From Rhizophagus irregularis (Eukaryota > Glomeromycota > Glomeromycetes > Glomerales > Glomeraceae), in the NCBI RefSeq assembly GCF_026210795.1, contig NC_089431.1, positions 5,766,001-5,830,000 on the forward strand: a DNA stretch of 64,000 bases, given 5' to 3'. Both the position numbers and the translations under genes were made by a program. The notes under the pieces were generated by a model, which made no database searches, was not told the origin of the DNA, and worked only from the letters and a program-made list of their open reading frames with translations. Shown piece by piece: positions 3,973 to 38,000 of the stretch (position 1 is its first letter; every line of letters starts with the position of its first letter).

Positions 3973-5029
3973 CTATTCCTTATCCGATTCGCCAAATAAT
4001 TCAGCTAACCTATCACACCATTCTAATACGATACTTTCAAGTTTATTTATACTAGGTCTAACAGAAGGATCTTGAGCCCAACACATTTTAATCACTTCAT
4101 TATATATACTAGGAGCATTATCACTCAATCTTGGTCTTTCTCCTTGACAAATATTAACAGTTAAAATCATATCATGTTGTTTGTCTTTAAATGGAAATTC
4201 ACCTGTACTTAATTCACACATTACAATACCAACACTATAAATATCCGAAGCTTGAATGTATTCTTTACCTTTTAAAACCTCAGGTGCTAAGTAAGGTAGA
4301 ATACCATAAATTCCTTCTTTTTCATTTTTATTTCCAATAGGAGCCACAGGTCTTGTTAGACCGGATGTTGGAAGATAAGCGATTAATAATTTCCCTTCAT
4401 TATTTCTGGAAAGGAGAATGTTTTTACTGTGTATGTCTTTGTGCATAAAACCTTGTTCATGAATTGTTTTTAGATCACGGAGAAATGAGGAAAGAATCAA
4501 TAGTTTTTTGTTCCAATTGAGAGATGAAAAATTGCTGTCAAGATAATCATGTAAATCCCCTTCTTCCGCATATTTAATTATGGAAATATAATTATTCAAG
4601 TGATCTTTGGTAATTCCATAAATTGGCAAGAATTTATCAGGAGATTTATTATAGCAAATATAATGATATTGGACCTGTTAATAATAATAAATAAATAACA
4701 GATAATAATAATTAATAATAATTTAGTTACTGCGCCATTAATGAATATCTAAAATCACATACCTGATTTAAAATCGAAGATAATTCCTTTTCCCAATCAA
4801 TTATTTTAAGCACAACCATTAAAGGACCAACTCTTTTTTGTTTTTGTTTATCACCAATAATTGGACCATTAATCCATTTTGCGATACGAATATTTGAAAT
4901 TCCCCCACTTGCAAGAGATTTTATATTTTCAAATTGTTCGTAAGGTATCCATTCAAAATTTTGTGAATTTGATAAATTTTCTTGTATTTTAATAATAAAA
5001 TTATCAATAACTTCGTAACCTGAAGTCAT
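3973..5029 (-). CDS. TKL-like pseudokinase
   Basis: Two exons in phase 0: 5029-4763 and 4674-3973, giving 322 aa. The N-terminus has the linker SGYEVIDNF...FEWIPYEQF, which also opens the kinase domain of the gene at 11764. The glycine loop is ASGGIS (residues 40-45), not GxGxxG. The ATP Lys is kept (VVLK, K75), and the catalytic loop is intact (HKDIHSKN, D169, N174). The DFG/DLG metal-binding triplet is replaced by TSG (192-194) inside an altered stretch AYLPTSGLTRP, so the Mg-binding Asp is missing. The APE motif (LAPEVL) and DIYSVG are present. The loss of both the glycine loop and DFG, with an otherwise open frame and clean intron, argues for a pseudokinase with a binding or scaffold role, not a decayed gene. 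There is no membrane segment, so it is probably cytosolic. Confidence 0.85.
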
Positions 5030-11015: not shown

Positions 11016-11763
11016 ATTTTCTTTATTTTCTATTATGAAATTACATTATTTAATCGGTATCCTTAAGAATTTATAAATTTCATAATGAAAAATATTTATA
11101 AGTATCAAACGTTTTGTACATTTGGATTTTTATTTATTTATTTTATGTCAAGCGGGCAAGTGAATATGTAGTACAATCAAAAAGAAAGTTATTAACTACC
11201 AAAAACAGTTGTCATCTAACAAAAAATCAGACCCTCGCTTGTAAAGAGATTTAGGGTGACCCAACTAGTGCCACCCTAAACCCACCCCGGACCACCTACA
11301 TCAGTAGGTTACATTTACTTGGAACTTTTTAATCTCTTAGATCTGATAGGATTAATTCATATCACGTGATATGGTTAAATGCAACTGTTATATTGTCAAG
11401 CTGGCCAGAAATTATGGAATTTAAAATGATACTCGGTGCCGAAAATTTCCGATTTCTTTTTTATTTGTTTGACTAAAATCATGAATTCAATAACAATACC
11501 TTAATTTGGAATAACGAAATAAATTTGTGTGAAACCGAAACAATCGGCTTAGTGGTCCCATAACCAAAATATTTGCTGTATTTTGATAATCAAATAAATT
11601 TAATAAATTTACAATGGAGAATCAGATCACATGATTATCCTTACGCTTTCGTTCAAATGTATTTATTTGGTAAATAAGTGTACCCTCTTTTATAAATTGA
11701 ATTCGTTTACCGTAAATTTTTCTTTCTTTTTTTTTAAAAAAAAAAAGATAAATCAAAATAAAA
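11016..11763. other. intergenic upstream region of membrane kinase
   Basis: No gene. A GC-richer patch at about 11220-11310 carries an imperfect inverted repeat around TTAGGGTGAC...GCCACCCTAA and looks like a short dispersed repeat dropped into AT-rich DNA. The last 100 bases hold T and A tracts just before the ATG. Confidence 0.5.
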
Positions 11764-14700
11764 ATGATATTAACTACACTAATTTTAATTTTTTTCCTTA
11801 AAAAAAAAGAAATGACATTAATTATTTTAAAAGAATTGCTAGAAGCTATTATATTTAATAAAGGATGGAAACTTGTTTTGGTTGCATTTTTTATTGCGTT
11901 TTTAGATAGTTGTGCATGGGTTTACACGGAAGATACTAATAATACACGATTTGATCTAATAGTTATAGTAATAGGGTTATCTTATATATTGTATACTGAA
12001 GCAGATAGAATGCGATTATCAAGACAAGAATTTCAATGGGTGATTTTGAGATTTTGTGATAAAAAACCTCATCAAGCGTATTCTTGCATATTTCTTTTCA
12101 TATTGTCAATATTATACTACAATATATATGTGAGCTCTATTATTCTTATTATATTATTTACATTTTTATCTGATTTCGCACCAAATAATTTACTCGGAAT
12201 TTCTGAATTTGGGTCAAAAATATTTAAAATTGTACATTATATTATTCCACCAATTATAATGGTGATTTTGTTTAAATTGTTTCTAGCAATATTAATGACT
12301 TCAAAATCGACTCTTGAGATATTATCTTCCGTTATCTATGAGGAATTAATGTTCTATTTAATGGGGTTTGCAATTCCATTTTTATTAATATTTTCAACGG
12401 TTAATTATCAGATGTTTGTTAATCATTACAACAAAAACCTTTCACTTTATACTTACTTTTTATTTTCGTTGAAAATGCAAAAATTGTATTGGTTGGTGGT
12501 GTTTGAAGTTTTAAGTATTTTACCACCAATATGCATTCATTGTGGTCATACGCGATCAGAGCGGAATTGGTGTCAAAATTGTGCAAAGAAATATTTTATT
12601 AATAATATATCAAAATGGACAAGCGGTCATGAAGTTATTGATAATTTAATTAAAGAATTTCAATTTAAAGCAAAAAATGAATTTGAATGTATAGAATGGA
12701 TTCCTTTTAATGAATTTGATATTATCAAAGAAATTGGTAAAGGAGGATTTGGTACAGTTTATTCCGCAACTTGGAAAAGTGGTCCTTTAACTATGTTAAA
12801 TGGAAATTTTGGAAGGATTAACAGATCCGGTCAACAAAAAGTTGCTATAAAAACTCTTGGTCGTTCAGATAATATTACAAAAGAATTTTTACATGAATTA
12901 GAAGCTCATATAAAATGTGCTACAACATATTCAAGCGATTTTTTTGCTGTACTTAGGTGTTATGGTTTAAGTCAAGATCCCGTCTCAGGATCGTATATGA
13001 TTGTAATAGATTTGGTAGAAAATGGAAGCTTAAATCAATATTTACAAAAAAAATTTTCAACTCTTAAATGGAATGAAGATAAATTAAGATTACTTGTAGA
13101 AATATCTAGTGGATTGAAAGTAGTTCATGAAGTAGATCTTGTGCATCATGATTTTCATACTGGCAATATTTTAATAGGAAAAGAGGGTACAGCCTATTTG
13201 GCAGATTTAGGACTAAGTCGTCCCGCTAATATACAATCATCTAAATCTGATGCTTTTGGTGTGTTACCGTTCGTTGCTCCTGAAGTCTTACGCGGAAATT
13301 CATATACTAAAGCTTCCGATATTTACAGTTTTGGAATGATCATGTGGGCGGTGTCTTCGGGTCAAAATCCTTTTTCACGTTATGAACTTAATAGTGATCT
13401 GGCATTAAGAATAGTAACGGAATGTGTAAGGCCACCTATTATTAAAGGAATTCCTAAAATCTATGTAGATTTAATGGTAAAATGTTGGGATCCTGATCCA
13501 TTAAAAAGACCTTCAGCTGCTGATTTAGAAAAAACATTTAGAAAATGGTATTTTAATGGGGAATTTTATGATAAATTTGCACAAGCTGATAAATTAAGTG
13601 TCGATTATATTACGAATATTATACAACGAAGTCAACCTATTTCTAGTTATAAAAGTCACAAAAGTTCAATTTGTCGGCGTAAGTTTGTAATAATAATACA
13701 TAATAATATGATGTTAGTTTATTGTTTTATTAAATGTAATTTTTTTTTTTAATTAATAGCATTAGATTATGACGTAAGTAATGTATTAGATTCAACGCAA
13801 CTAGGATTAGTTATAGATAATGAGATGCAAGGTAAATATTGGTATTCGAATTGTCCAAAGTGATCAAACAGCCTAAAATAAGTAACTATTATTTTTACAA
13901 ACATTAAAGGATCCAAACAATTAAATGAGATAAATTTAGGTAAAAGTATATTTAAAAAAAAATGTTTTTTTTAAAAAAATATTACTTTATATATTTGCTT
14001 ATGTTACATGAATCAACGCAACTAGAATTAGCTCTTGATAATAAAACTTCAGGTAAATTGTGCTTTAACTTTATTTTAAATATTAGATAAAAATCTGAAA
14101 TTATTTTATTATTCTAATTAGAAAATCAAGAAAGCCAATTTATTCATAGCTATAGCAAATTTGTTTCTAACAAATTTATTGAAGAAGCTGAAAAAAATAA
14201 TGGTAAAATTTATATAAAATCACCTTATTATTAGTATTTGATTATAATATTAACTTTTTTTTCTTGCATTAAAGAATCTAAAAAATCAAAGCAATTTGAT
14301 AAGACAAATTTTGGTAAGAATATATTTTAATGTGTTTAATTTCTTTGATATTGTTAATTTTATATACTAAATAATATATATATATTAAATCTAAAATTAC
14401 CAGAGTTAGGATTAGTTCTTAATAATAAAATATCAGGTAAATATACTTATTATTTTAATTATTTTAAATGAATAAAATCTGAGATTTTTTATTATATTTA
14501 TTTTTATAATAAATGATCAAAAAATCCAATCTATTAATAATAAATGTGTTTCTTATAAAGAAAATAAAAAAACAAATCAATTAAATAAGATGAATCCAGG
14601 TAAGATTTATATAAAAATAATTGATTTTTATTATTATTTAAAATATAATATAATTAATATTATAATATTATTTTATTTGCTTATTAAAGAATCTGAAAAG

Positions 14701-16279: not shown

Positions 16280-16599
16280 TAATCTATAATTCATTTGAAA
16301 ATTTCAATCAAGATAAATTAAATAGTAGTAAAATTGTATAAATAGCATTAATATTAAACACTCTATTTTTACTTAAATATTAGATTTGTTATTTCTTTAT
16401 TTATTACACTATAATTTACATTTATATTTACTATCTATATTAATAGAATTGAAAAATTTTTACATTCCATCCTATCTTATATAACTATATTTCATTCTAT
16501 AAGATTCATATTTTATTATTCCATTCTATTTTCTATAATTCCATTTATAATCACAGGTCGAATGAAAAAAAATCGGATTTTGACCCTTTTAAAATAGTT

Positions 16600-17235
16600 T
16601 TGCCGATATTAGCATATACATGCCGATTTTTCGCGTATTTATGTATAGATTTGCCCATTTATGCCGATTTTTAATAAAATCCGATACATCAGTCGGAAAT
16701 ACCAATTTTTAATGGCCGATCTTTGTTAATATTAAATTCGGATGTTGTTATTATTATATAGTATTGTCCGCTTTTCACATCGGAGGTTTGATATACAAAT
16801 CGGAATTTGCTCCTTTAAATATAGCCATGCCAATTTCAGTATAGCTTTCGATGAAATCCGATAATTCAGTCGGAAATATCAATTTTTAATGACCGATCTT
16901 TGTTAAATAAAACCGATATTAAATTCGGATGTTGTTATTATTATATAGTATTGTTCGCTTTTCATATCGCAGGTCTGATGTACAAATCGGAATTCGCTCC
17001 TTTAAATATAGCCACGCTAATTTCAGTATAGCTTTCGACGAAATCCGATAATTCAGTCGGAAATACCAATTTTTAATGACCGATCTTTGTTAAATAAAAC
17101 CGATATTAAATTCGGATGTCGTTATTATTATATAGTATTGTTCGCTTTTCATATCGCAGGTCTGATGTACAAATCGGAATTCGCTCCTTTAAATATAGCC
17201 ATGCCGATTACAGCATATCTTTGCCGATTTAAAGT
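16600..17235 (+). repeat. left subterminal tandem repeat (177/187 bp units)
   Basis: About three tandem copies of a unit containing GTCGGAAATA, GACCGATCTTTGTTAA, AAATTCGGATG, TATAGTATTG and CGGAATTCGCTCC. The GTCGGAAAT landmark falls at 16692, 16869 and 17056, giving 177- then 187-bp spacing; the first copy lacks 10 bp. The unit is rich in CCGAT/ATCGG words, which are shared with the right end of the element. Subterminal repeats of this kind bind the transposase or accessory protein in plant CACTA elements; that role here is inferred. Confidence 0.8.
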
Positions 17236-17721
17236 ATAATACTGTCGCGGTAATACTGCAGACTTAATAATTTTAATATATATATATATACACTAATGTA
17301 CCGACTTCATAACAATGAAAATTCGGATAGAGAAGAAAAAAAGGAAGCATTGGAAAATAAGTGAATTAAACCTTCACGATATACTTAAAGATAATAAACT
17401 TAGACTTAGGTATGAAAATTAAGTTAAGCTTCTTAACTTAACAAATGGAAATATACTTATACCATATAGGAAAAAGAGAACATAATTATTTAAAAAAAAA
17501 TTATTTTGATTTTTTTTTTATTATTATTATTATTATCAGGTAAGTTGGAGCGCGAACGTAATAAGTTTCTCGGATTTTTTAGAGCTTGATTTTCCGCTGA
17601 AATTAACAAAAGATATGTTAATGAAATAATATGAAATAATAGGACAAAGATATTTTTAAGTAATAAGGAAGATACTTACATCGTAATTTGCGTATTTGCC
17701 GGTGAAGAGTAGAAATTGATT
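17236..17721. other. spacer inside the CACTA-like element
   Basis: AT-rich, no supported gene. It includes a short TA repeat near 17277-17290 and a possible splice-like stretch near 17540. The 3' end of the small coiled-coil gene lies to its right. Confidence 0.45.
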
Positions 17722-18293
17722 CTACTTCAAGGTTCTCCAGCTCCTCAACCCTATCTTCTGCGTCCGCCCCAGTGCATTAATAGTCCTTTGCGAGCATTTT
17801 GAGTCTTGTAGTGCATTAGTAGTCCTTCGACGAGCATTTTGGAGCTCTTGTATCTTGGTTTGCGAAGCATCTAATGCTTTTTTCGTTGCTTTTAACTCCG
17901 CAAGGCATGTTCCCAGGCCTCTGTTATAACAATCGACATTCACTGAGCAATAAAAAAATACATATACAGTATATAAAAATAATGGGTGGTTAGCAAAAGC
18001 TAAGTGAATAAGTCGATAGTCCTTGGAAGCATTCTTCAGGATTGTTCCATTTAAGAACCGAGACTGCCCTGGAGGTACAAGACCTCGTCTCTTCAGGTGA
18101 CCCATCTAAGAACCGGACAGCTCTGGAGTATAAAACTCCGTCTACAGGCGACTCCATTAGAGAAATACAACCATGAACCTTGCGTACGATACCCACTTTT
18201 CAAAAATTTTACGGTCGTCATACGCTTCGCTTTGAGCGTCTTAAAACGCTCCTTAGATTTTTTCTGCGAGGTTGTGGAACGGCGAGAACCCAT
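17722..18293 (-). CDS. small basic coiled-coil protein of the element (model uncertain)
   Basis: The ATG at 18293 opens a very basic N-terminus (MGSRRSTTSQKKSKERFK then TLKAKRM). The frame of 17722-18105 ends in a coiled coil (CLAELKATKKALDASQTKIQ then ELQNARRR). The two parts are in different frames and must be joined by splicing, or by a frameshift, somewhere in 17935-18200; I could not fix the junction. The same layout, a basic MG-K/R-rich start followed by a coiled coil, is seen in the gene at 25343-25759 near the other side of the transposase, so the two may be paralogues. The internal part contains two similar ~27-bp segments (CTCCAG...GGTTCTTA.ATGG). Function unknown; a DNA-binding accessory factor is a guess. 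Confidence 0.4.
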
Positions 18294-18554
18294 AATGGCG
18301 TTAATAAAATATAATTGATGAAAAGACAAAAATTATTGAGCGAAAGTAAAGGGCATGGAATGATGAAAGGTAGATTTTATATAATAAAAATACGCGTCCT
18401 GAAAAACGCGAACAAGCTGATGAAAATACACGTGAATTTTAGAATAATTATTTTTAGAATAAGGAGAATAGCAACTTTAAATTAGTAATATATTATTTTG
18501 AGATTTGAGCCGATTTTTAATAACGTTATTCAAATTTATAGAAAATTCATTTTA

Positions 18555-18800
18555 TTAAAATGTTATTTTTTTATTTAAAGGAATAACTGCCATATAATTT
18601 TTTATCTTTCTCACTTCAACATTAAATTACATGTAATAATACATTATATATTGGTATTATACTATCTCTATCCATAATTCTATATTACATGATTTTATGT
18701 CGTTATATACTTGACAATAAAATCTTATCTTGAGAATCATGAATCGGTTTATACCATTTAACTAGTGCAAGTAATTATTTAAATAGACCTGTCCCTTAAG
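18555..18800 (-). pseudogene. relic of Tnp2 transposase C-terminus
   Basis: This stretch aligns by eye with 21690-21930, the 3' end of the transposase gene. Shared landmarks in the same order are TTTTTTTATTTAAAGGAAT, CCATAATTCTATATTACATG, ATTTTATGTC, CTTGACAA and TACCATTTAACTAGTGC. Small deletions and substitutions destroy the frame. It shows that a second, diverged transposase copy was once in or beside this element. Confidence 0.75.
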
Positions 18801-19441
18801 GTCTATAGGTCCGGAATGTCTAAAAATTTGCAAATCACATGAATTTTCACTCTGGACCCACAATGGTTAGTATTTACGAGTGATAGTTTAGCCGTTTCCA
18901 AACTGATACATACGCCCAATTGCAACAATCATGATTAAAAAAAATACTTTTGTCAATTGATTGGTTACTATAAAATCGCCTTATATTGTTCGACATTCCA
19001 ATTGTCGAAAACGGCAATAATCGTAGTATAATTATTTGTTAATATTTCACGTGAACAAACAAATCAATAATTATTTATATAAAACTTTCTCCATCCCTTT
19101 ATCGAATTTTAGAACGATGGTTGATTGATTGTTTTGTTAAGTAAATTTCATTTTACGATTTTTAATAGTGATATATACATGATAATTAATTAAGTGATAT
19201 CGATGGTATCAATTTTTAGTTTAATTTTAATAGTGATATACACATGATAATTAATTTAGTGATATCGATGATATTAATTTAATTAAGTGATATCGATGAT
19301 ATTAATTTTTAATTAAGAGATAACGATTATGATATTATTTTAATGATGTAAGTAATGGTTAAATAGGTGACTTTTCACCTTTCTTTTCGGTTCAATCTTG
19401 TTTCTTTACATTATTAAAATGAAAAAAAAATAAATTGACGC
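18801..19441. other. spacer with GATATCGATGATAT repeats
   Basis: No gene. From about 19165 to 19330 several diverged direct repeats of AATTAAGTGATATCGATGATATTAATTTTT occur in tandem (never more than partly conserved). This lies just upstream of the RS-rich accessory gene and may belong to its promoter. Confidence 0.5.
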
Positions 19442-21514
19442 TTATTCCTATTTCACGTAGCGAATCACATCCTCGTTCTCCTTCTCAGGGTCCGCTCTCA
19501 GCAATATCATCAATCTCCTTCCTCTCACTCCCATCGACGTCGACGTCGACATCATTCTCGTTCTCTCCCCTCCCCTCCCTCCCTCCTCACTCGTCGACGT
19601 CGACGTCGACATCATTCTCGTTCTCGACACCATTATGATTCTCTCCTCCTCCTCTCCCTCCTCACTCGTCGACGTCGACGTCGACATCATTCTCGTTCTC
19701 GACACCATTATCATTCTCTCTCCTCCTCCTCCTCCTCTCACTCTCGTCGACGTCGACATCATTATCATTCTCGTTCTTCCAATTCTCATTCTCAACAATC
19801 CTCTCTCCCCTCTAGGGGGAGATCGTTAACAAAAAGTATTATTATTTATATTTTTATTGAAATTATATTTAATATGACCTGTACTAATTACTTGTAAAAT
19901 AATAGGAAATTTGCCGGATTTATCGGAAGGTGGTTATATATATATATTATTATCAAATCAATTAAAAATATAATAAATTTATAATATTTTATTAACTTCT
20001 GATAGGTGGACAACAGCAACATCATCAAGAAGAGCAATCTTCGCAATCTTTTAGGTGAGGACCCATTCATATCATCGCTTCATCAACTTCGCGCTTCTTT
20101 GCATAACTGTTTTTCCTATTATAAAATTATTAAATCAAGAAATTCAAGAACTAAAAAGCGCGGTATCACAATTGTCTAGTCGACTGGAGGCTTTGACAGG
20201 CAGTAACTCCAGCCATTCTAGTGATAAGACGATCGCGAGTATAACAACAAGTGTTAATCGAAGTCTATCACCCGTAATAAGCAGAAATAAAGGAAAAAAA
20301 CTATCACCAATGACTCCAGGCTTTAAAAAACACTTCGTGTAAGTTACACCTCTATTATAAAATATTTATCTTTTATAATCTTTAATCATATTCATTATTA
20401 TTTTAAATAGGATGAAGTTGTTCAAATCATTAATAATTTAGGTTCCAGAATTTCGTTTGATGTTTCACAAACGTTTAGTGACCAGAAGAAATCAATAAAC
20501 AAAAAACTTTTACCAGCGGTAAAAGCGGCAATGAATCCATCGATTGAAGTATACGATACCGAGATTGTTAATGTAATCAAACAGCTTCATAAGTCTCGCC
20601 GAGATATCTGGAAAATAACCCAGGATGGCAAATTAGATACGCACAGTAGACGTCAACATATGACTTCTCGGCGAGACCAAGTACGAAATTTAATAAAATG
20701 CAAAATTTGTCAATTATTTCTAATTGTCTATGCAATCAATTAACATTATTAATTAACTATTAATTAACTTTTTAACAGAAAATGACGCGACGTAAACGCG
20801 GTTTACAACACATGATTAACACAAAAGACAAGGTTTTAAATGACTGCAAACCTCAAGAAATTACCTGGGACGAGTACATGAAAGATTGTGAAAAAATTGT
20901 AGTGATCTCGGAACTTCATTCCGATGAGTGGTCATCGGAAGATGAAAATCTTGCCAACAATGAAAAAAATCTAGAGAAAAGACCAGAACGTTTAGATAAA
21001 TCGAATTCTGTAATCAAAATACATGAAAAAAAATGGAAATCTACGAGAGTATGTAAAGTTATTTCTTTATCAATATAACATTTATAAATAATATTTTTTT
21101 TTTAATTAGATTAGGAGAATTCTAAGTAGGGCGGATGAAATCGGGGAGAGTATTGGAACTGGTCTAATCCGTATGCGTCATCGTTTAGATAATGTCATCG
21201 ATAATAAAAGTAGACCGACAGAAATAATGCCAGACTGGTGGATTTCTTCCACCTGGGCGCCAGTTAGCGAAGACAGCGAAGACAGCGAAGACAGCAATGA
21301 AAGTCATAATGAAGGTGGTGATAATAATGATGACAATAATAATAATGATGACAATAATAATAATGATGACAATAATAATAATGATGACAATAATAATAAT
21401 GATGACAATAATGATGAGGATGACAATAATAACAATAGTGGCAATAATAATAACAACGAATTCGATGACAACAACAACAACAACAACGATAATAACCCTT
21501 TAGTAGTTTTATAA
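19442..21514 (+). CDS. RS-rich/acidic accessory protein of the CACTA-like element, copy A
   Basis: Recognised through its paralogue at 27154-29227. Exon 1 (about 19442-19835) is Arg/Ser/His-rich in the frame ending PSRGRSLTKS; it holds four blocks of CGTCGACGTCGACATCATTC. Then come 19906-19929, 20006-20054, a part with NQEIQELKSAV to 20336, and three solid exons: 20411-20680 (270 nt, DEVVQI...SRRDQ), 20779-21048 (270 nt, KMTRRKRGLQHMIN..., ELHSDEW) and 21110-21514 (IRRILSRADEIG..., PDWWISSTW, then a D/N-rich acidic tail). No good ATG exists for exon 1 and I found no acceptor for the NQEIQEL exon, so the 5' half may be damaged. The gene is convergent with the transposase 164 bp away. By position it resembles the TnpA partner of plant CACTA elements; no sequence similarity is claimed. 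Confidence 0.7.
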
Positions 21515-21677
21515 ATATAATATATGTAACAATAATATAATAATAATATAATAAAAATATGATATATCCTTTAATAAAAAAAATTAGTTATAATTTAATC
21601 AAATACAAATGTTATATAATTCAAATTCGTCATTCCGATTTACATATAAACAATTTTATATAAGATTCATTTGTTTT

Positions 21678-24600
21678 TTAAAACGAAATTTTTTTATTTA
21701 AAGGAATCACGGCCATATATTCTTTTATCTTTCTCGTTCCAATATTAAAATCACATTTTATAAATTTTCCTAATATATGATGTACCGGTATAATACTATC
21801 TCGACTCATATCATAAAACCCATTTGTCCATAATTCTATATTACATGATTTTATGTCATCGTCTACTTGACAAAAATATCTTGTCCTATGATCTTGGGCC
21901 GGCCTGTACCATTTAACTAGTGCTAGCGAATGAGTTAATGATGATGAATTTTTTAAATAAATAGTATGTTCAAAATAAAATTGAACTTGACCGGGGTATG
22001 TGTCTATAGTTCCATCTTCCTGCTCAAAACGAGCTAATATGTATGATGATTTCTCATGACGAGCTGCCTGAATGGAACCAAATATATCCGCCCCAATTCT
22101 TATTCTACCGTATTGTATAATTTTGGAAATTACAACAATATCGTTATTTGGACCCGTTATAGAATAAATGGGGACGAAATGTTCTTCATACAAACTATTA
22201 TAAAACTCAACCAGTAAGTCCAAGACGCGGTTTGGGAGAAATGTTTCTTGGCGCGGTTTCATTAGCAACCCAGGAAAACGTTCTGTTCCATAAGCCGATT
22301 CATTTTCGATAAGTGAAAGCCTCAGAAAATTTTGATACTCATCACTTGTAAAATCGTCAAGTGCAGCCAAGCTTCCTGCAGATTTTCTAGGCTTTATAAT
22401 GTCCAAAGTGGTGTTTAATATATTGCTATCGCAATTTGTGAGGTAATAGTTTAAAAAGGAACTTTCAACCATTATTTTTAATAGCTCTGGTTCAATGTTA
22501 CGTTTGCTATTTTTATACGATCCTATGTTCTTAAGAAATAAATTGGTCAATCTGTATAAATTAAAAAAAAACAATACGATTTTCAAATCGGCGAAATTAA
22601 TATATCATACCTAGAATTCCGTTCATTCGTTCGAAGCTAAAACACCAAAATGAGGATAAAGGTCCATAATCTAAAGCGCATTCACATATGTGAAGGCATA
22701 AATGAAGATTTGGGCTTATTTTTTTTTGTCCGTATTTTTTTTCAATTAATTTATTCATTTCGAGTAGTTTTGTAAATGCTTCGTTTAGATCACTTTTTTG
22801 TAGTTCCCGATTTGTTAAAATTTTACAGGAACGTACGAAATAAGCAAGAATTTTTCGATCGATCTCTCCCAAGAGATTCCATGTGATAGGTATTGCAAAA
22901 ATTAGAACAAACGTCTTCCACATGTCCGCCGTAAAATTTGAAAAGCCGTCGCCAGTGGCTATTCTAACGGGACGGCGACCGAGGTCACTTGGAAATTTTA
23001 TCAAGTCGGCTCGCTCTTGCATTATTTTGAGCTTTTCATTATTTAATATACCTTCGTCGATCCAGAGCTTCATTACAATTCACTTTGCTACCCCGAGAAA
23101 GAGGCAGTGCATGGGATCAACTACGCAAAAGCGCACAGAATTAAAATAAGGTAATTGGTATACTTCCGACCAACGAACATGATACTGTGAGACATGAGCC
23201 TTACGCGATTCTTCGGTTGCACATTTCTTCCATTCACGTGCCTTCTCCCTTATTAAATTAATATCTCTCTCAACAAACCAGTCGTCAATGTCTTCAAACC
23301 CACCAAAATTGGGTTGATTATTTACCAAGTTTGCTGATTTATAGCATCGATAACATGCGATTCGAGCTGATATAAAACCACATAATTTTCGAGTCGCAGG
23401 AACGTCACTAGCACAACCTATTATCGCGCCATGGATAAAACGACCGTTGTTATATTCGTAGGTTTTTATATGATACCCTTCCCATAACCGATTCAGCTGA
23501 TTTATGATGGGGTATAAGTAATTGTTGATTTCATGTTTCTTTGGCTCTTTAGGACCGGGTATAACTGCTAGTGTGAGAATATTGTAGGGCTTGAAACGTT
23601 CGCTTCGGGGTAAGTTACAAATAACGGCATATATTACACCGACAGAATATTGGGAATTTATATAGGGTTGAAACCAATCCATGTTTAGCATTAATCCGAT
23701 ATGAGTTTCGGCGTATTCTTTTTTGAAGAATGGTTCTCCTTTGCCATCTTCAAAACTCATCCAAATCCTCCCATCATAAATGTCAAATAAGGCTTCAGTT
23801 TCGTTTTCCCTTTCTGCCCACTTTCGACATGTCACCTCAAAATCTTTGCGACCGAAAAATAGGGTTAGTTGGCGCCTAATGTTAACTAATGGAAATGTCA
23901 TTATCGGACGGATAATTGGATTATTTCCACCATCTTTATTACTGTCTATTTTTTTGACTAGAGGGTTATTACATTTTTGTCGAAATCTTTCTATGCTATG
24001 ATTCGGGTAGTTTATAAAACTACATGTTGGTACTTCGGTTGTGTTTGATATTTCATTTATGTCATACAATTTGTGACATTTATTACATGCGGCATATTTG
24101 ATAATATTCGTTGATATTCCCAATATTTTTTTGGCTACGTACAGGGAGGAAGGAAAAGATGAAAATTTATTTTCATCTACCGTTAAAAGAAAAAACCTTA
24201 GAAATTTAAATAAAGAATCTATTGAAACATTAGGAAGCTTATATCTTTGTTGATATTGTAATATCCATAAGATAATCCAGGTATAATTATCATTGTTGAT
24301 ATTAGGAAGTTTTGGTTCACCATCGTCAAAATCTTTTGACGCAAAATTGACTTCTTCCTCATCATCATCTTCAAAATCTTCAGAGTCTCTATATTCTTCA
24401 TCGCTTTCAAAATCTCCAAAATTACTGTCTTCGTCATCATCTTCAAAATCGCTAGAAACACCATCTTCGTCATCATCTTCAAACCTTTCAGAATCTCTAT
24501 TTTCGTCGTCATAGTCTTCAAAATCTCTATCTTGATCATCATTCATATCTCTTCCGTTATCCGGTAATAAATTTTCAAGAACGTGATCAGATATTTTCCC

Positions 24601-24942
24601 TTTCTTTGTGAATTTATGTTTTGCCGATTCATGTATAGGTATCATCTCGAGTAAAGGTTCGCATTCCATTGCATTATTATCGTCAGTATATTGTCCAACA
24701 TCAGAAGGCCCAGCCTCTTGATAATCATCACCAAAATTATTAGATGGATTAGCATTAGAAGGCTCAGCTTCTTGATAATTGTTACTAAAATTATTATTCG
24801 CATAAGATATATTATATTTTAACCCATGTTTAGTTTTCGTTCTTGGGTCCACTAACTTGCCATTACATTCTTTACAAAAGCAGTATACTTTAGTTCTTAT
24901 TCTTGTTCTATTAGATTTGGCAACAGCTCGAGGGTTAGACAT
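21678..24942 (-). pseudogene. Tnp2-type CACTA transposase with one in-frame stop
   Basis: Two exons: 24942-22611 and 22522-21678, joined in phase 1 so that the product reads ERMNGILG/SYKNSKRNIE. The length is about 1,058 codons. Hallmarks of the fungal Tnp2/DUF4218 family are visible: MDWFQPYINSQYSVG, NLPRSERFK, VIPGPKEPKKHE, SDVPATRKLCGF with a CYRC pair, VDPMHCLFLGVAK, LWIDEGIL, GDGFSNFTADMWK, LHLCLHICECALDYGP and SFWCFSFERMNGILG. The N-terminus has a CxxC motif (CFCKECNG) and a long Asp/Glu repeat region (residues ~150-235). The only break is TGA at 23080-23082, where relatives are expected to have Trp just after LGVAK. The product would be the nuclear DDE-type transposase acting on CACTA ends. 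Because everything else is open, the loss is recent. Confidence 0.85.
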
Positions 24943-25342
24943 TTTTTTATCTAGAAAATTTTTTTGAAAATTTTTTTTTATATAGGAAATTTTTTTGAAA
25001 AATTTTTTTATCTAGGAAATTTTTTGAGATCCTGAATTAATATTAAAAGTTAATTTCTGATTCACAAAAAGCCGCTAGATACTTATTAAAGTGAAACAAT
25101 CAGCCACATTTTTTTAATTTGTATTAATTATAATATTACAAATATTTACTCAAAATCTTTTGGGATTTTAACCAATTTATATATATATGATTGGAAAATA
25201 CCACCTGACAGGCACTTTTGCGCCTCTCCCACCCCCTAAAATATAGCATAATGAATGTTATTAGCCATTTTTAGCAATAATACATGCTTTATTCATCGAA
25301 TTATAAATTCTGAGATTAGCCAGAAAGATTATTTTCGCAAAA
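24943..25342. other. divergent promoter region inside the element
   Basis: Lies between the start of the transposase (-) and of the small coiled-coil gene (+). T-rich direct repeats (AAATTTTTTTGAAAAATTTT-like) occupy 24950-25025. No coding sequence seen. Confidence 0.5.
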
Positions 25343-25759
25343 ATGGGCAAACCATCGTTGAATTCTCGCAAATCCTCGCGAAATCGCAAAAAAAATAGAA
25401 GAGAGCGAATGCTAAAGGAATTAAAGGGGTAGGATAAGGAAGTTGCCGATTTGCAAGTCCAGTTGCTGGACTTTAAAAAAGTTGTGTACGATTCGGGAAA
25501 GAAATTACTTAATAAGTTGGAGAAAAGTTCCCGTGAAAACAATAATTTGGTGGAGTGGTTAAAAATATACGACGAAAAAATAAAAGACTATGAAAAAGAA
25601 ATTTATGATTTAAATTTACGATTATATTTTTCGCAACAACATCAACAAACGCAGCCGCAACAACAATCGCAACAACAATCGCAACAACAATCGCAACAAC
25701 AATCGCAATCACCTACATTTAGCAGCTTATCAGAATACTTCAAATTTCACAAGTCATGA
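25343..25759 (+). pseudogene. small basic coiled-coil protein with in-frame TAG
   Basis: The ATG at 25343 opens MGKPSLNSRKSSRNRKKNRR, a very basic segment, then ERMLKELKG and a TAG at 25430-25432. The same frame continues DKEVADLQVQLLDFKKVV..., a coiled coil of about 75 residues, then a Gln-rich repeat (QQQSQQQSQ) and a short tail ending at 25759. The stop is best read as CAG to TAG, since the frame is otherwise continuous and of consistent character on both sides. Layout resembles the gene at 17722-18293. Function unknown; basic head plus coiled coil suggests a dimeric nucleic-acid binder encoded by the element. Confidence 0.6.
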
Positions 25760-27153
25760 TTAATCAATTATATTTCATTTTTTCATTTTTTAATTTGAAA
25801 ATTCCTTTATATTTTGTAAATATGATGTTTTTTTTTGGCTATTAAACCAGCTTCTTTTTCATAATATAAGATAAGATAATATTAATACCTTTAAAATCGA
25901 TTTAAAATGTCATAAATTTTGTATAAATCTAATAGTAATTAATCATCATACTGCATGTAACAAGTATCTCAACGAACGATTTGTCCATCAGCGCCGAATG
26001 ATCGTGATAAACTTGCATCTATCATTTTAGTAGTAATACATATGAACTATAATTTAAACAAAAAGTCAGTCTAGTATGGGGATCATCCTCCCTATCGACA
26101 TGGGGAACATCTCCCTGTAGATGTTATTCATGTACGCAGGCAGAATGGAACTCAGAACTTTATTACATCAACGATGTTATTAGTGGTTAAATTTATGCGC
26201 TGTTTTTTTAATCAAGTTTCATAAAGAATGAAAAAAAAAATTTTGGCGATTTTGTATGTTATCTAGTTGAAAGATTTTATATTATTTTTTATTAAAAATT
26301 AATTGATTGAGTTATTTTTAATCAAAATATCAAAATCACGTATAAAAGTATAAAAAGTTATTCTTTTATTGCCCAATAAGTACTAATTTTCTGCCTTGGG
26401 CGCAGTTTGTTACTACACGTGACTGGATGACGCATAAGTGTCACGCGCCAGATGCATAAATCCTACAAAATCGGAGGTGCCAATCATGATATATTTGTGT
26501 ATGTTTACCACGCTTTCTTCGACGATATTTATATCGCTTTTTTTCGTTCACATCACAGTTCGAAATATTTCCTCTCTCTTTTCGTTCACATCACAGTTCG
26601 AAAATATTTCTCTCTTTTCGTTCACATCACAGTTTCGAAAATATTTTCTATCGCTTTTTGCGTTCACATCACGGTTTCAAAAATATTTCCTATTGCTTTT
26701 TCGTCACGTATCGCTATTTCGTCGCGTCACAGATTTCCTACCGGAAAAACACAAAAATATTTCCTATTGCTTTTTCGTCACGTATCGCTATAAATTTCCT
26801 ACCAGAAAAACACAAAAATATTTCCTATTGCTTTTTCGTCACGTATCGCTATTTCGTCGCGTCACAGATTTCCTACCGGAAAAACAAACTTCCGTAAGTA
26901 ATTAATTTAATTAAGTTTAATGATATTAATTGATTATTAATATATTTAATTGATGGATAGCGATGTAGTATAAATTTATTGATATGTGATAACGAAGTTA
27001 ATAATTTATTTTATGTTTATTTTGATTAGGCAATTACGCGTTAAATGATAGGATGATTCAAAATATGTATATAAAGTGCCTTTTTATCTCTTGTCCGATC
27101 TTTAATAATAAATACCATAATGAAAAGATTTAAATTTTTACAAATTTCTCGGG
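25760..27153. repeat. spacer with CpG-rich short tandem repeats
   Basis: No gene supported. At 26530-26670 four diverged copies of CGTTCACATCACAGTTCG occur every ~35-55 bp. From 26690 to 26890 a ~75-bp unit (TTTCCTATTGCTTTTTCGTC ... TTTCCTACCGG) is repeated about 2.5 times. These repeats are much richer in CpG than their surroundings and sit just upstream of accessory gene copy B, so a regulatory role is possible. Reading frames across them are repeat artefacts. Confidence 0.6.
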
Positions 27154-29227
27154 ATGCATAGGAACCTCAATACTAGATCTCAACAAAAAGAATCAGATTC
27201 CCGTTCTCACTCACATCGTTCTCATCAATGATCCCATTCACGTTGTTCCCATCGTCGTTCTCACTCACGTCGTTCTCATCAACGATCCCATTCACGTCGT
27301 TCCCATCGTCGTTCTCACTCACGTCGTTCACATCGTCATTCTCATTCACGTCGTTCCCATTATCGTTCCCAACCTCGTAGTCGTAGTCATTCCCAATCTC
27401 GTAGTCGTAGTTATTCCCAATCTCGTAGTCGTAGTCGTAGTCGTTCCCAATCTCGTAGTCACCGATTACGACAACAACATATCTCTCCATCCCATTCTAG
27501 TTCCCCTATCCGTTCACGTCGACATCATCGATCACATAAATCACAATCTAGATCCCACAGTTCTAACCATCATCGATCCTATTATGAAGTATCTGATTCT
27601 AATGATCAATTTACCACTCTCTCATCCAAAGATTCATCACCACAAAATAGAGGGAGATCATTAACAAAAAGTAATATTATTTAAATTAGTCTTAATTACA
27701 TTTCAAAACATATACCGATTTAACATAATTATTATAGGAACACTTACAAATCAATCTTCGATATTGCAAAATCAACCTTCCTCTTCAATTACTCCGGCTC
27801 TAAATAGCGGTATTATTTCCCTCACGCTCCTATTCTGACTTACATGTAAAAAAAAAATTTCAAAATGAATTATATTAAATACTGACTTATAATAGGTGGC
27901 ATTGAAAACCAAGAAATTCAAGAATTAAGAAATGTAATCTTAAATCTCACACAACGCTTAAATAACCTAACCGAAAAAAATGCTAGTCATGAAGAACCTT
28001 TAGTTAATCGTCCCAATAGAAGCTTATCGCCTATTCTTATTAGAGAACAGAAACGTGAGCTGCCACTCATGTCAAGTAATTATAAGAAGACACTTCACGT
28101 AAATATACATTTTTATTAAAATTTATCTTTATTAAATTAAATATTTGATCATTTAATGACTGTTTTATTAAATAGGATGAAGTAGTCCATATTCTCAATA
28201 ATCTTAATCAGTCGCTTCAATTCGACCTATCAAAGACGTACAGTGAACAAAAAAAAACAATAGAAAGAAAACTTTTGCCAGCAGTAAAATCGGCCATGAA
28301 TCCTTCTATTGTAGCATATGATATAGAGATAGTAAGAATCATAAAACAATTGCATAAATCTCGCCGAGAGATTTGGAAACTGCAAAAAGAGGGTAAAATG
28401 CCGGAATATACCAAAAGACAACACATGATATCCAGAAGGGATCAGGTATAAAATTCATTATTTAATAATAAAAACATATACAATTAATTAATTTTTTAAT
28501 TTACTCTTCAATAGAAGATGTCCCGGCGCAGAAGAGGATTGCAGCACATGATATCGACACGAGACAAACTTTTGACTGAATGCCAACCTCGTAACTTAAA
28601 ATGGGAAGAATTTATCAAAGATTGTATAAAGGCGACTAATACTTCAGACATACACTCGGACGAATGGTCCACAGAAGACGAGGAATTAGCAAACAAAGAA
28701 CGCAGTAAAAATACAAGATCAGGTCGATTAATTAACAATAATTCAGTAATAAAGATTTACGACAAGAAGTGGCGGTCGTCGGGAGTATGCGAAGTCGTGA
28801 TGTTATTAATGAATATAACATTTATGCTTAATAAATTATAAATTTTTATTAGATTCAAAAAATTCTACATCGATCGGAAGAAATTGGTATTAGCATCGGA
28901 TCTGGTTTAAGTCGTCCACGTTACCGCTCAGATGAAAATTTTGACAAAAAAAGCAAACCAAAGGAGAACATTCCCAGTTGGTGGATTTCGTCAAGCTGGG
29001 TTGCACAAGAATCCGACGAAGATGGTGATGAAGAGGATAATAGTGACGATGATAACAATGACGATAACAATGACGACAATAACGACAAAGATAAAAACAA
29101 TGCTAGTAACGATAAAAACGACAATAACGTTAACGATGATAATAACGATAAGAATGATGACGATAAGAATGATGACGATAAGAAAACCGATAATAATGAT
29201 TATATTTTTATCGATGACAGGCGATGA
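27154..29227 (+). pseudogene. RS-rich/acidic accessory protein, copy B, with in-frame TGA
   Basis: Six exons fit: 27154-27670, 27738-27809, 27896-28098, 28176-28445, 28515-28784, 28853-29227. Exon 1 is an RS domain (SRSHSHRSHQ, then many SHSRRSH and SRSRS repeats) ending NRGRSLTKS. Exon 3 has a short coiled coil (NQEIQELRNVILNLTQRLNN). Exons 4 and 5 are each exactly 270 nt as in copy A (DEVVHILNNLNQSL...SRRDQ; KMSRRRRGLQHMIS...SDEW). Exon 6 has PSWWISSSWVAQESDEDG and a D/N/K acidic tail. Codon 26 is TGA (27229-27231) where the repeat has CGA elsewhere, so the first exon is interrupted. RS-plus-acidic architecture with a basic RR-rich core suggests nuclear, nucleic-acid-associated function; no known family was recognised. 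Confidence 0.72.
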
Positions 29228-29507
29228 AAAGGATGATCCATTTCGACTAGTGGTTCCAAAAGAAATTATTAGGAGATCAACTACTAAAAAACGTTCTCTT
29301 TTAAAAAGTGAAAGAAAATAGTAAGATGATTATAGCACATAGTAATAATAAATATAGCAAGAATATAATAATAAATATATCATAAACTGCAAAATAAAAA
29401 AACGTATATTACAATGTGTTCATATAAATTAAAATCGGTCAATAATAGAAAAAAACGGGTAATGATGAATTACGAAAAAATCAAAAATAGAAAGATTCTG
29501 GCTTACT
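29228..29507. other. 3' flank of accessory gene copy B
   Basis: Short AT-rich spacer. A second frame across the gene end (FRLVVPKEIIRRSTTKKRS) stays open to 29321 and could be the ancestral C-terminus if the acidic repeat has slipped by one base; not resolvable here. Confidence 0.35.
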
Positions 29508-29843
29508 CGAAATAAAAACAGGCATAGATTATTTTAAGTATTGCTCTTACTGATCTATGAATCGGCATTTCTATTCAAATCTATTTGTGATCGAAATAAA
29601 AACAGGCATAGATTATTTTAAGTATTGTTCTTACTGATCTATGAATCGGCATTCCTTTTCAAATCTATTTGTGATCGAAATAAAAACAGGCATATGTTAT
29701 TTTAAGTATTGCTCTTACCGATCTATGAATCGGCATTCCTTTTCAAAACTATTTGTGATCGAAATAAAAACAGGCATATGTTATTTTAAGTATTGTTCTT
29801 ACTGATCTATATATCGGCATTTCTATTTGTGAGAATGGCATGA
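29508..29843 (+). repeat. right subterminal tandem repeat, four 84-bp copies
   Basis: The phrase CGAAATAAAAACAGGCATA recurs at 29508, 29592, 29676 and 29760, exactly 84 bp apart. Each unit contains a GATCTATGAATCGGCATT core. Further single ATCGGCA/GTCCGATT words continue to the element end at 30316, in both orientations. Confidence 0.9.
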
Positions 29844-30316
29844 TTATCGCAGTCCGATTTTGGATGATTACTGCATGAATCTGCATGGTAGTGTAAGTCT
29901 GTTGTGCCAATTTATAAATCGGCACTTATTTTTTGAAAAATTATTATACGAATCGGTACAATAGGCAGTCCGATTTGGGAGATTATTGAAGAATCGGCAG
30001 GTAATATAAAATGTTTGTTGTTCTGATTTAAAAATCGGCACTTCTATATGTTATGAATCAGCATGTTTATTTTCATGCCGGCAGTCTGATTGTGATGATA
30101 TTTTGTAAATTTATTTACAAGTCGGCAGTCCGATTATTGTTTGAATCGGCATGATGGTTTAAAATGCGGCATTCCTATTTTTTGTCATTAAAAAGAGGAA
30201 TTTCTATTTTTAGCAATTCGCGCCATAAAATCGGCTGAATAAAGCCACGAATCAGACAAATACAGCCAAAAATCGGCAGTCCGATATTTGACCGATTTTT
30301 ACTTATTTGACGTGTG

Positions 30317-30779
30317 AATCTATATCCTATATATCTTTTATCTTTCATATTCTATTATATATTTCATTAATTTGATTTTTTTATTGTTGAAAAAAATTTT
30401 TTTATTATAAAAAAATGTAATATTATTGTGAATTTTTATTTTTTCAAATAATGTAATTAATGTAAATCTATGATTTAAAATAATGTAATACTAATGTAAT
30501 ACTATATGATAAATAAGCCTATTTTTTTTGATTTGTCTTCTTTTTTTTTGCATAAAGTTACAAAAATAAAAAAAAATGGATAGCTCTTATTACTATAAAT
30601 ATTAAATTTATTATTTTGAATTTTATTATTGTAAATCATTTGGAATAATATGTTTTCAACTTTTTATTATATAAAATAAAAATTTTACTTTGAATAAAGA
30701 TAAAAATTAAAAAACTAATAAAAGTTAGTATTTTAATATATATTTTACATTTGTGTGGCTATAAATTTATAAATTAATA
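30317..30779. other. AT-rich flank, no gene
   Basis: Begins with the AAT duplication of the CACTA-like element. Extremely AT-rich, with no open frames of note. Confidence 0.5.
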
Positions 30780-35096: not shown

Positions 35097-38000
35097 TAGG
35101 GATGTGGACGGTTCCATCGGTTCCGTTCCAGTTCTGCTGAGCGGTGAAACTGGCTCCGAGCTCAGTTTCATGGAACGGCTCTAGTCGGTTTGAGTATGTT
35201 CGAGTCGGCTCAAGTCGGTTAAATTTGATCTATAATTAATGACGATCCAATCATCTACATTCGTTACTAATTTAGTAATAGCCTTAAAAATATTGCCAAT
35301 TTAATTGGTTTTTTAAAGTTGCACACTTTGTTTAAATAAACGCAACTGAAAATAAAAAAATTATTGTAATTTCGGTAATCGCCTCTTTTTCTTATGCCAA
35401 ATAAATCAAGACACTTATTATTTACTATTATATATTTGGCTAACTTTATATATTTATTTATTAAAATGTTTTTTTTTTGACATCAGTGAAAAATAACGAA
35501 ATTTGAGTTAGTGGCATTGTAAAGTAAAGTAAAAAAAAACCGAATAACAGCTAGGCTAACTGGCTAAGTAAAAAAAAATTATTATTTGACTAGCTTATTA
35601 TTAATCCAACTTTTCATACACAGACAAACTCTTGCAGTTTCCGGCAATAAACGATTCCGGGTTTTAGTGATTGTATTTCCAGCTACCGAAAATGCTTGTT
35701 CCGACGCAACGCTCATTGCTTGAATACAAAGAAAATCTCGCGCAATGTTACATAATACCGGGAATTCGTTAGAATGCGCTTGCCACCATGTTAGAGGATC
35801 GGTCCCCTCATCAATTGGTAGTTGAAGATACCGATTCAATTCTTCAAATTCTACTGCTGGAATTACTGGAGAAATTTCGTCGCTGGTTTGGTCAATTTCT
35901 TCATTTATTTGTTGCAATCGTGCAAAATACTGGCGTGTACTATTAGGAGCATATTGTTTTGTATTCGTAAGTAAGGACCATTCTTTATATGTATTGTATG
36001 TGTCTTGAATATGTTGGAGAGCACTTAGTCTTGACTCATCCGAGAATATTGTAAGTTTATTTTGAGGGTCCAGAATTGCAGAAGTAATCGAAGATTTATC
36101 CATAATCATCCAATATTGTCTTATTTTCCGGTGTATCAAAGTTGCCATTTCACGTTGCGTAAAGGTCTCATTTTCCATATTTTTTGTTAGATGTGCCTGG
36201 ATTCCCGAAAAAATAAAGCGAGTCTCACCCATCGTTGAATAAGATGATGCCGACAAATATTTGGTAGCTTTTTCTAGGGGTTCAAGAAGCAAGAGCGTAT
36301 CCTATTTAAAAATAAGTAATATTAATTTTTTTTTAAAAAAAAATTGGTGCATTATTTTTTTTTTAATAATATTAAATTTTCTAAAATTTAATAGAAATTA
36401 TTTACTTTGATAGCAATCCAATCGTCATCATTTGGGTAAAAAGCATGAATTGATCAATTATCAGCTACTAGTAAAACTAGTGCTGGTTCAAGTACCTCCA
36501 AACGCCTCAACATATAATAGGTAGAGTTCCAGCGTGTCTCTACATCAATAATAGGTTTAAGGTACTTAATTTCTTTTAAGTTGCACAAGAGGCGAAGATT
36601 ATCACATAGACAGGTCGAATTTTTAATGCTATTCATTAGTTTACGAGCCTTTTTAATGGAATCGTTAACTAGTTTTAGTCCCTCTTTCACACCTAAGTTT
36701 AGGACGTGTGCAGCGCACCGGTAGTGAGAAAAAATCATGGATGAAAACCCATCATCCATATCTAAAGCAATCTCTCTCCCGCAAACTATCATAGCAGATT
36801 CATTATCTGTTGTGAGCGCGACGATTTTATTGGAAATATTGAACTCCTCCAAAGTTCGCATTATTTCTCTTGCCATATTTGCTCCAGAATGGCTAACTGT
36901 AAAAGGGACGATATCAAGAAGAAAATTCTGGAGTTTCCAATTGGAATCCACATAATGTATAGTGAGTCCTAAAAACGCCTCCTGATTTATGGTAGACGTC
37001 CACATATCTGCCGTTAACGCGAATTTTCCTTTGATTTTATGGAGTTCGTTGATAACTGCGTCTCTTCGGTTTGTAAATGTAGCGATTATTAAGTCTATTT
37101 AAATAGAAAGAAAATTAGATGTTATTATGTGAGTTTTAAAAAGTTTTTTAAAATAAATTACCTTTTGCCTTATGTCTATCAGGAATAATATATCGCGGGC
37201 AGAAAAAATTGATGAACATTTTAAAATAATGGTTTTCAACAACCGTGAATGGCTGAAGGTCACAGATCAACCAATCAGTAAGGTATTTATCGTGAATTTG
37301 TTGTTCTTCTTCATCAAAAGGATCTCTTTTTTCAATTACAACGTATTTTTTCTTAGGTACACTTAAACTATGTTTATTAAGATACTTTCGCAAAGTACTA
37401 ATGCTCGTTGTTATTCTGTATCTATTGGAACATATTTTGCAAATATTATAGCCTGGAGCATATGACGGATTTTTATCAAAGTATTGCCATACAGCACTTC
37501 CTAACGTAGTTGTTATATCCGAAGCGTCAGTATCTGATCCTATATTCATACATGACAACTGGCTAGCTGTCTCATCAAGGTCTAAAACATCTTCCCACTC
37601 TTCATCAAACTCTTCATCATCAAGCACTAAATCTTTTTGGTCGGGAACAAATTCTTCGTCACTTAATGACATTCCGAGATGAGAGTGGATTTTTTTAAGT
37701 AATCTTTTTAGATTATCAGTATTTATTTATTACAGATTATTTTTTAGGCAAATCATCATATTGATAGGGACGATTATGTTAATTTCATAGTATATGGGAT
37801 CAAATACAAGTTTCTTAACCGATTAATTATTATTTCAACTTAAAGGAACAATCAAAATTTCCTATTTTGTATATTTATAATTATCGTAAATTTCCCGTTT
37901 AATTCAAACATTTTTCAGTTCTTTGATTATTGGTGAATTTTTTCGTATGGTGTTTTAAAAAATAATCGTAAGAATTAGAAAACTTTTGCCTTTTAGCATC

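Follow-up and report, generated by a model that had tools for sequence, protein, structure and literature searches.

The 64,000-nucleotide stretch of Rhizophagus irregularis DNA analysed here (C3:5766001-5830000, referred to as the window) harbours a transposon with a Tnp2 transposase gene and two paralogous copies, A and B, of an accessory gene. Relatives of this partner gene, which has no known family, accompany most of the Tnp2 loci scored in the genome (146.7 Mb, 32 contigs); judged from the open-access literature, such a partner appears to be new, and its named relatives so far all come from Glomeromycotina. The window itself holds a defective copy of an apparently young, autonomous-type CACTA (EnSpm) family.

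The linkage between the two genes was assessed from the side of the transposase. Tnp2 matches comprised the best 150 of 532 candidates, of which 132 were left after removal of the 17 copies of the window family and of one diverged relative, hereafter the sister element. Accessory exons were gathered with four queries (B type, L076 type, L077 type and L078 type); the list was compiled by hand with one extra row, and the window family, repeats between lists and second fragments of a gene were dropped. At 111 of the 132 Tnp2 loci an accessory exon is found within 8 kb, whereas 1000 random shifts of the positions within contigs gave 4.2 such loci on average and at most 12. The loci that provided the L077 and L078 queries were chosen because they were at first without a match, and both are counted among the 111; with the first two queries only, 75 of the 132 are linked (control mean 2.4, maximum 10). 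At 108 of the 111 linked loci the genes stand head-to-head, i.e. the accessory gene is located on the 5′ side of Tnp2 and on the other strand. Two loci have it on the 3′ side and the other strand and one on the 5′ side and the same strand, so that the two genes occupy opposite strands at 110 of the 111 loci, as do A and B relative to Tnp2 in the window. Three loci first without a listed accessory gene all carried one on the expected side and strand when they were opened and searched with a profile (E = 1.5e-16 and 2.2e-10 at L077, 6.6e-11 and 2e-10 at L078, 2.6e-9 and 6.9e-5 at L085; these values are relative to the open reading frames (ORFs) of the few loci given, not to the genome). L085 is one of the 21 Tnp2 loci without a listed accessory gene, and the sole one of them that was opened. 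Across the linked lineages, identity of the accessory proteins to the first row of alignment A2 lies at 23-62%. Thus the gene that the initial annotation had tied to this element does belong to it but is not peculiar to it. Most relatives tested have it head-to-head with the transposase, and so it probably encodes a second protein used by these elements and is not a passenger.

The two paralogous multi-exon genes that had been predicted were confirmed, with the start of gene A corrected, on the basis of the C8 copy, to the ATG at 19419. Over 235 core residues, A and B are 58% identical. Their proposed tripartite composition was also recovered: exon 1 of B encodes an arginine/serine (RS)-rich head with 41 RS/SR in 172 residues and a net charge of +37, the core is basic (net +13 in B, +7 in A) and the tail acidic (net -20 in B, -26 in A). 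A coiled coil, read by eye, is probable. RS heads were found in B, in A (C8 copy) and in the sister. Exon 1 of B was located in five of eight loci, with lengths of 517, 529, 559, 583 and 583 that all leave the same frame, and it is free of stops in three of these five. The sister element (C2:1250015-1262923, 12,909 bp, target-site duplication (TSD) ATA) has a single accessory region with an RS-rich first exon without stops and a core whose identity is 59% with B and 58% with A. Because A and B are as far from each other as each is from the sister (58-59%), with their order left open in the tree, the pair appears to be old. That tree contains long branches (L075, L076) and does not settle in which order the clades of A, B, the sister and R. 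clarus branched, with 9 of its 21 inner branches open, and the A/B split is dated no further than by the pairwise identity of 58-59%. A further frame of 430 residues in the sister (L069:3178-4467, minus), which has no Pfam match above the cut-off, is possibly cargo.

Among the accessory cores of A, B, the sister and L075, the proportion of differing synonymous sites (pS) is 0.71-0.87 as opposed to 0.24-0.49 for nonsynonymous sites (pN). Amino acids are conserved while silent sites are saturated, and therefore the core is under purifying selection; as synonymous divergence (dS) is saturated in five of the six pairs, a selection ratio was obtainable for B versus the sister only (0.14). Databases hold 25 related proteins detected with the B core as query and at least 87 detected with a profile. 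The profile search scored 7989 candidates, and its list is not exhaustive since two Diversispora rows of its own query are missing from it. All relatives bearing an organism name are from Rhizophagus or Diversispora (Glomeromycotina). They are annotated only as hypothetical or uncharacterized, so that a set of repetitive genes now receives a suggested function class. A Pfam scan of 45 accessory members gave no credible match; the best E was 0.0024, and the hits were spread over 10 unrelated families. This is in line with the earlier claim of an unclassified family, and no plant CACTA second-protein family is among those 10, listed at E 0.1. SR splicing proteins combine an RNA-recognition motif with an RS domain; despite the RS head, no such motif was found by the Pfam scans.

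The transposon is well delimited. Its inverted ends (CACAGGTCGAATGAAAAAAAATCGG / CACACGTCAAATAAGTAAAAATCGG) agree at 20 of 25 positions, a value reached by none of 20,000 random pairs of 25-mers, and AAT borders both outer sides, as described initially. The designation as a CACTA-like element with exact borders is supported as well, except that the terminus reads CACAG and not CACTA; inverted CAC...GTG ends are present, in the form of CACAG/CACAC in the window element and of CACTG at both ends of L075. Probes from the left end (first 169 bp), the right end (last 357 bp) and B (301 bp) have 17 genomic places in common (91-100% identity). The 301-bp probe also matches paralog A (72-74%) at all 17 places, and Tnp2 is matched there too, so that both ends enclose the same genes in 17 copies. 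These are about 13.3-16.7 kb long, with a single exception of 24.7 kb. A perfect 3-bp TSD borders 15 of the 17, among which 13 different triplets occur, and unlike flanks are seen at C24:2428778+ (GTG/AAT) and C12:4212660+ (ATG/TAA). For empty sites, the flanks were joined across 14 family insertions and the sister, and 40 of 598 candidates were scored; all 40 cross the junction over 119-120 bp with 98-100% identity. They belong to C3:867660 (15), C3:751219 (19), C14:2729713 (5) and the sister (1). The search for sister copies, 3-bp duplications and empty sites that had been suggested with the initial annotation was hence positive, with empty sites for three copies and the diverged sister. The 17 copies also mean that the refuting condition set there, the lack of any other locus with both ends around the same gene set, does not apply, and a chance assembly of the parts is ruled out by the copies, target duplications and empty sites. 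The insertion site of the C14:2729713 copy resembles a retroelement integrase. With gaps left out, identity to the window copy amounts to 99.5% for C11 and 98.5% for C8, and the family is taken as young because of this near-identity.

Beyond these copies, a C23 place carries the 5′ end at 95% without a match to the 3′ end, A or B, and three further relatives of the 5′ end reach 80-83%, the sister among them; weaker left-end relatives are C1:396127 (83%) and C3:2271905 (80%, 86 bp only). An 82-bp stretch that is 80-81% like part of the right end occurs at nine places, e.g. C9:1407918, C16:3004515 and C7:737591. Two family copies, C24:2428778-2442081 (+) and C24:2442232-2466893 (-), are arranged tail to tail with about 150 bp between them; the first has the unlike flanks GTG/AAT, and the second is the copy of 24.7 kb. 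A search of a plasmid collection gave no match, and an Rfam scan of the window found no family at its threshold.

The identification of the transposase as Tnp2 holds, with a Transposase_21 (tnp2) match at 23080-25011 on the minus strand (E 2.3e-14; 53.6 bits versus a cut-off of 28.6). When the C(2)C and H(3)H motifs were checked in alignment A4, D390, D513, C530 and C533 proved invariant, the catalytic residues having been picked by eye; N(L/I)HLxLH and ER(M/L)NG are visible in those rows that reach that region. Tnp2 evolves more slowly than the accessory gene (pN 0.17 between window and sister), with dS saturated. The window copy is defective. Its in-frame Tnp2 TGA is missing at the same site in the C11 and C8 copies, and so is a TGA at codon 26 of exon 1 of gene B; exon 1 of gene A is closed, with no open frame from its ATG. 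The other two copies have stops of their own elsewhere, one each in B exon 1 and, in C8, two in A exon 1. An unbroken Tnp2 frame of 812 residues is present in some family copies. Relatives P0098-P0122, 73-87% identical to the window Tnp2, are on short contigs; one of them, P0101, is filed in a gammaproteobacterial bin and looks mis-binned.

The ATCGG/CCGAT arrays that had been noted at both ends are far above chance: the two outer 700 bp contain 34 of these words, whereas shuffled sequences give a mean of 3.9 and a maximum of 9. The corresponding counts are 25 in C8, 11 in the sister, 15 in L075 and 11 in L076, so that the excess is found in all five elements tested, from four families (shuffle maxima in the same order 9, 8, 8, 7 and 7; means 2.1-3.9). 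Over the whole window the words occur 112 times versus 69 expected.

Related ends delimit further elements. L075 (C2:883173-889656, 6,484 bp) has the ends CACTGGTCAAATGA/CACTGGTCGAATGA and the TSD TTG; L076 has CACTGGTCGAAAT ends and flanks TTC/TTA, an imperfect TSD. Genome-wide, the pattern CACWGGTCRAAT was counted 235 times, as opposed to 11 times for the reversed pattern. Among 100 of its places listed there are 21 pairs of neighbours spaced 1-20 kb apart, of which 14 are oriented towards each other; lengths of about 3.5 kb (five) and 6.44-6.48 kb (five) recur. In one 3.5-kb pair the ends were read and show the TSD TGC and ATCGGG/CCCGAT near both ends. Elements of 3.5 kb bounded by CACTGGTC, namely C2:982349-985867 and four similar pairs, are probably non-autonomous relatives of the L075 family, and the same probably applies more generally to short elements of about 2-3.5 kb with related ends and target duplications of their own. 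At 13 loci (L056-L068) a relative of the right end precedes one identical flank, its last bases missing in three of the 13. For four of them the left end CACAGGTCAAAT was read 2-3 kb away (at L079-L082); all four share the left outer flank and three have ATA at both junctions, the right junction string not being found in L058/L082. The 13 loci probably represent one nested, non-autonomous CACTA insertion of about 2-3 kb that was amplified inside another dispersed repeat, and because the four copies read have the same left outer flank, this composite was probably amplified after the insertion.

The features of the element are compiled in the table. Two small basic coiled-coil genes had been proposed in addition. 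Their ORFs are present, but their status as genes is weak: the ORF at 25343-25759 has a TAG at codon 30 in two of three copies, the one at 17722-18105 matches no Pfam family above the cut-off, and in the sister and L075-L078 no credible relative of either was found (one 17-residue match, E 0.49). A remnant upstream of A resembles the 3′ end of the transposase gene, with 84% identity over 76 bp between 18551-18626 and 21674-21749 and 68% identity to the 3′ end of the sister Tnp2, and it points the same way as the true Tnp2. This position of the remnant therefore suggests that the whole Tnp2/accessory unit was duplicated in tandem and that the first transposase was later lost.

Table. Features of the transposon in window coordinates.
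Feature	Position	Strand	Remarks
Whole CACTA/EnSpm-type element	16552..30316	.	13,765 bp; copies with same ends and genes, TSDs, empty sites
Left target-site duplication AAT	16549..16551	.	
Right target-site duplication AAT	30317..30319	.	
Left terminal inverted repeat	16552..16576	+	CACAGGTCGAATGA...; 20/25 match to right end
Right terminal inverted repeat	30292..30316	-	
Left subterminal ATCGG/CCGAT array	16572..17228	.	includes 187-bp tandem repeats (16729-17222)
Small ORF, initially a 'coiled-coil gene'	17722..18105	-	family copies only; status doubtful
Remnant resembling transposase-gene 3′ end	18543..18768	-	upstream of A
Accessory paralog A	19419..21514	+	core exons 20411-20680, 20779-21048; tail exon 21110-21514; exon 1 broken here
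Tnp2 transposase (Transposase_21, PF02992)	21678..24942	-	start MSNPR...; in-frame TGA 23080-23082
Small basic ORF, Q-rich tail	25343..25759	+	TAG at codon 30 in window copy
Accessory paralog B	27154..29227	+	head-to-head with Tnp2; 17 genomic copies; exon 1 TGA here
B exons (predicted)	27154-27670, 27738-27809, 27896-28098, 28176-28445, 28515-28784, 28853-29227		
Right subterminal ATCGG/CCGAT array	29434..30296	.	includes 84-bp tandem repeats (29507-29827)

Around the element, the window contains frames at 755-1867, 3973-4677, 11752-13752 and 55097-56053 (AAA_11/AAA_12 helicase-like, two protein kinase and a major facilitator superfamily (MFS) transporter piece), pieces of a hAT-type transposase at 35582-37726 (minus) with dimerisation region, RNase-H-like part and BED finger, and a 130-bp tandem repeat of about seven copies (39113-40037).

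In plants, CACTA elements need, besides the transposase, a second protein that attaches to the subterminal repeats (PMC2613891, PMC1636069). By analogy, we hold with moderate confidence that the accessory protein is a TnpA-like partner, encoded by a gene of its own, that would bind the subterminal repeats and be required for transposition. Such a role is plausible because the protein combines a probable coiled coil, a conserved basic core and an acidic tail, because there are arrays to bind, and because it is a constant partner of Tnp2. According to this model, cutting at CAC...GTG would be done by Tnp2, which shares the C(2)C and H(3)H motifs described for EnSpm transposases (PMC12730594); the accessory protein would dimerise via its coiled coil, attach with its basic core to the ATCGG arrays at either end, and bring the element ends and Tnp2 together, perhaps also keeping methylation off the CpG-bearing arrays. 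Nuclear targeting and multivalent contacts may be the tasks of the RS head and the acidic tail. More tentatively, and with somewhat less than even confidence, we propose that CACTA elements of Glomeromycotina have a lineage-specific partner for transposition or anti-silencing, a new protein family that is head-to-head and co-inherited with Tnp2 through deep divergence and reads a shared ATCGG end code, and that the two old paralogs of the window element would work as a pair, e.g. as a heterodimer or as activator and antagonist.

Several observations weigh against the TnpA-like role. Neither Pfam nor a search of solved structures recognised a DNA-binding domain in the accessory protein, the latter giving nothing below E 1.3, and Tnp2 itself could recognise ATCGG. 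A strong RS enrichment characterises the window family and the sister; in L075 it is weaker (9 RS/SR in 109 residues) and in L076 not evident, so that it is not a trait of the whole family. In the sister element, Tnp2 and the accessory gene share one strand. Viewed from the accessory side, with the first two queries, 75 of 167 matches outside the family have a listed Tnp2 within 8 kb and 92 have none, a number that is not readable as independence because most Tnp2 candidates fell outside the scored set.

The main rival, which we infer might also be a second task of the same protein, is anti-silencing. The accessory protein would then bind the arrays, whose ATCGG word contains a CpG, mainly to remove or block DNA methylation, in the manner of VANC of the VANDAL elements, while being dispensable for cut-and-paste. 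Among the private C>T/G>A changes of the C8 copy, 57 of 106 are at CpG, which accounts for 1026 of 4454 C+G sites, and this bias fits the CG methylation (mCG) reported for R. irregularis transposable elements (PMC8647823). In addition, VANC is described as binding short arrayed motifs (PMC5735166) and maize TnpA as acting on a methylated promoter (PMC1636069). By itself this function explains the fixed pairing with Tnp2 no better than a transposition partner does, and we regard this alternative as rather unlikely. A role on the RNA side, with the RS-rich protein controlling splicing or export of the element's multi-intron transcripts, would suit the RS heads of B, A (C8) and the sister and the many predicted introns of the accessory genes; it seems improbable given that the Pfam scans found no RNA-binding domain and that distant relatives keep the core exons, with the RS head weak or not evident. 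Still less probable is a suppressor-type repressor, in which case A, B or both would hold transposition back instead of helping it. In Spm, the Suppressor function has been assigned to TnpA (PMC2613891), and the two paralogs could be activator and antagonist, but a pure repressor is less likely to be retained by most scored lineages. The least probable reading is that of a captured passenger without a role in the element. Two accessory copies in the window element would be compatible with it, and the unrelated extra ORF of the sister suggests that cargo occurs; it is disfavoured by the linkage (111/132) and the head-to-head orientation (108/111), which persist across lineages with such divergent accessory proteins, and by the purifying selection.

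Compared with known systems, the TnpA-like partnership proposed here comes closest to maize En/Spm (TnpD/Tnp2 and TnpA), which likewise has a Tnp2-type transposase, CAC ends, a 3-bp TSD, subterminal arrays and two proteins (PMC2613891). In En/Spm, however, TnpA and TnpD derive from one alternatively spliced unit (PMC2613891), whereas in R. irregularis the partner has a gene of its own, which mostly diverges from Tnp2 and matches no Pfam family. Judged from gene orientation, the accessory gene does not appear to share a single spliced unit with the transposase, as the genes are on opposite strands at 110 of 111 loci, the sister with its one strand standing apart. SmTRC1 also encodes a Transposase_21 protein, and a TnpA-like second protein without detectable animal or fungal relatives has been proposed for it, but it employs alternative splicing in place of two genes (PMC1636069). 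Fungal EnSpm and Plavaka elements are described with EnSpm CAC..GTG ends, a 3-bp TSD and an extra gene, which there codes for a TET/JBP dioxygenase (PMC12730594); the terms 'rhizophagus' and 'glomero' are absent from the main text of that paper. VANC of the Arabidopsis VANDAL elements resembles the accessory protein in being element-coded and associated with short-motif arrays in non-coding parts (PMC5735166), but it belongs to another kind of transposon, and homology was judged only from the absence of a credible Pfam match. The second proteins of plant CACTA elements such as Tam1 and Tgmt* (TNP1-like) share little or no sequence similarity (PMC2613891), and for this reason co-evolution of Tnp2 with a DNA-binding partner has been hard to see. 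Here, in another host kingdom, one homologous partner family can be traced beside Tnp2 at 111 loci of many lineages in one genome, together with the end sequences of the same elements, so that the co-evolution of transposase, partner and subterminal code becomes directly testable. The convergent origin that was initially suggested would rest on the lack of detectable similarity. While the two-protein architecture of CACTA elements is already known, the partner protein family appears to be new, and its function would parallel that of the plant second proteins.

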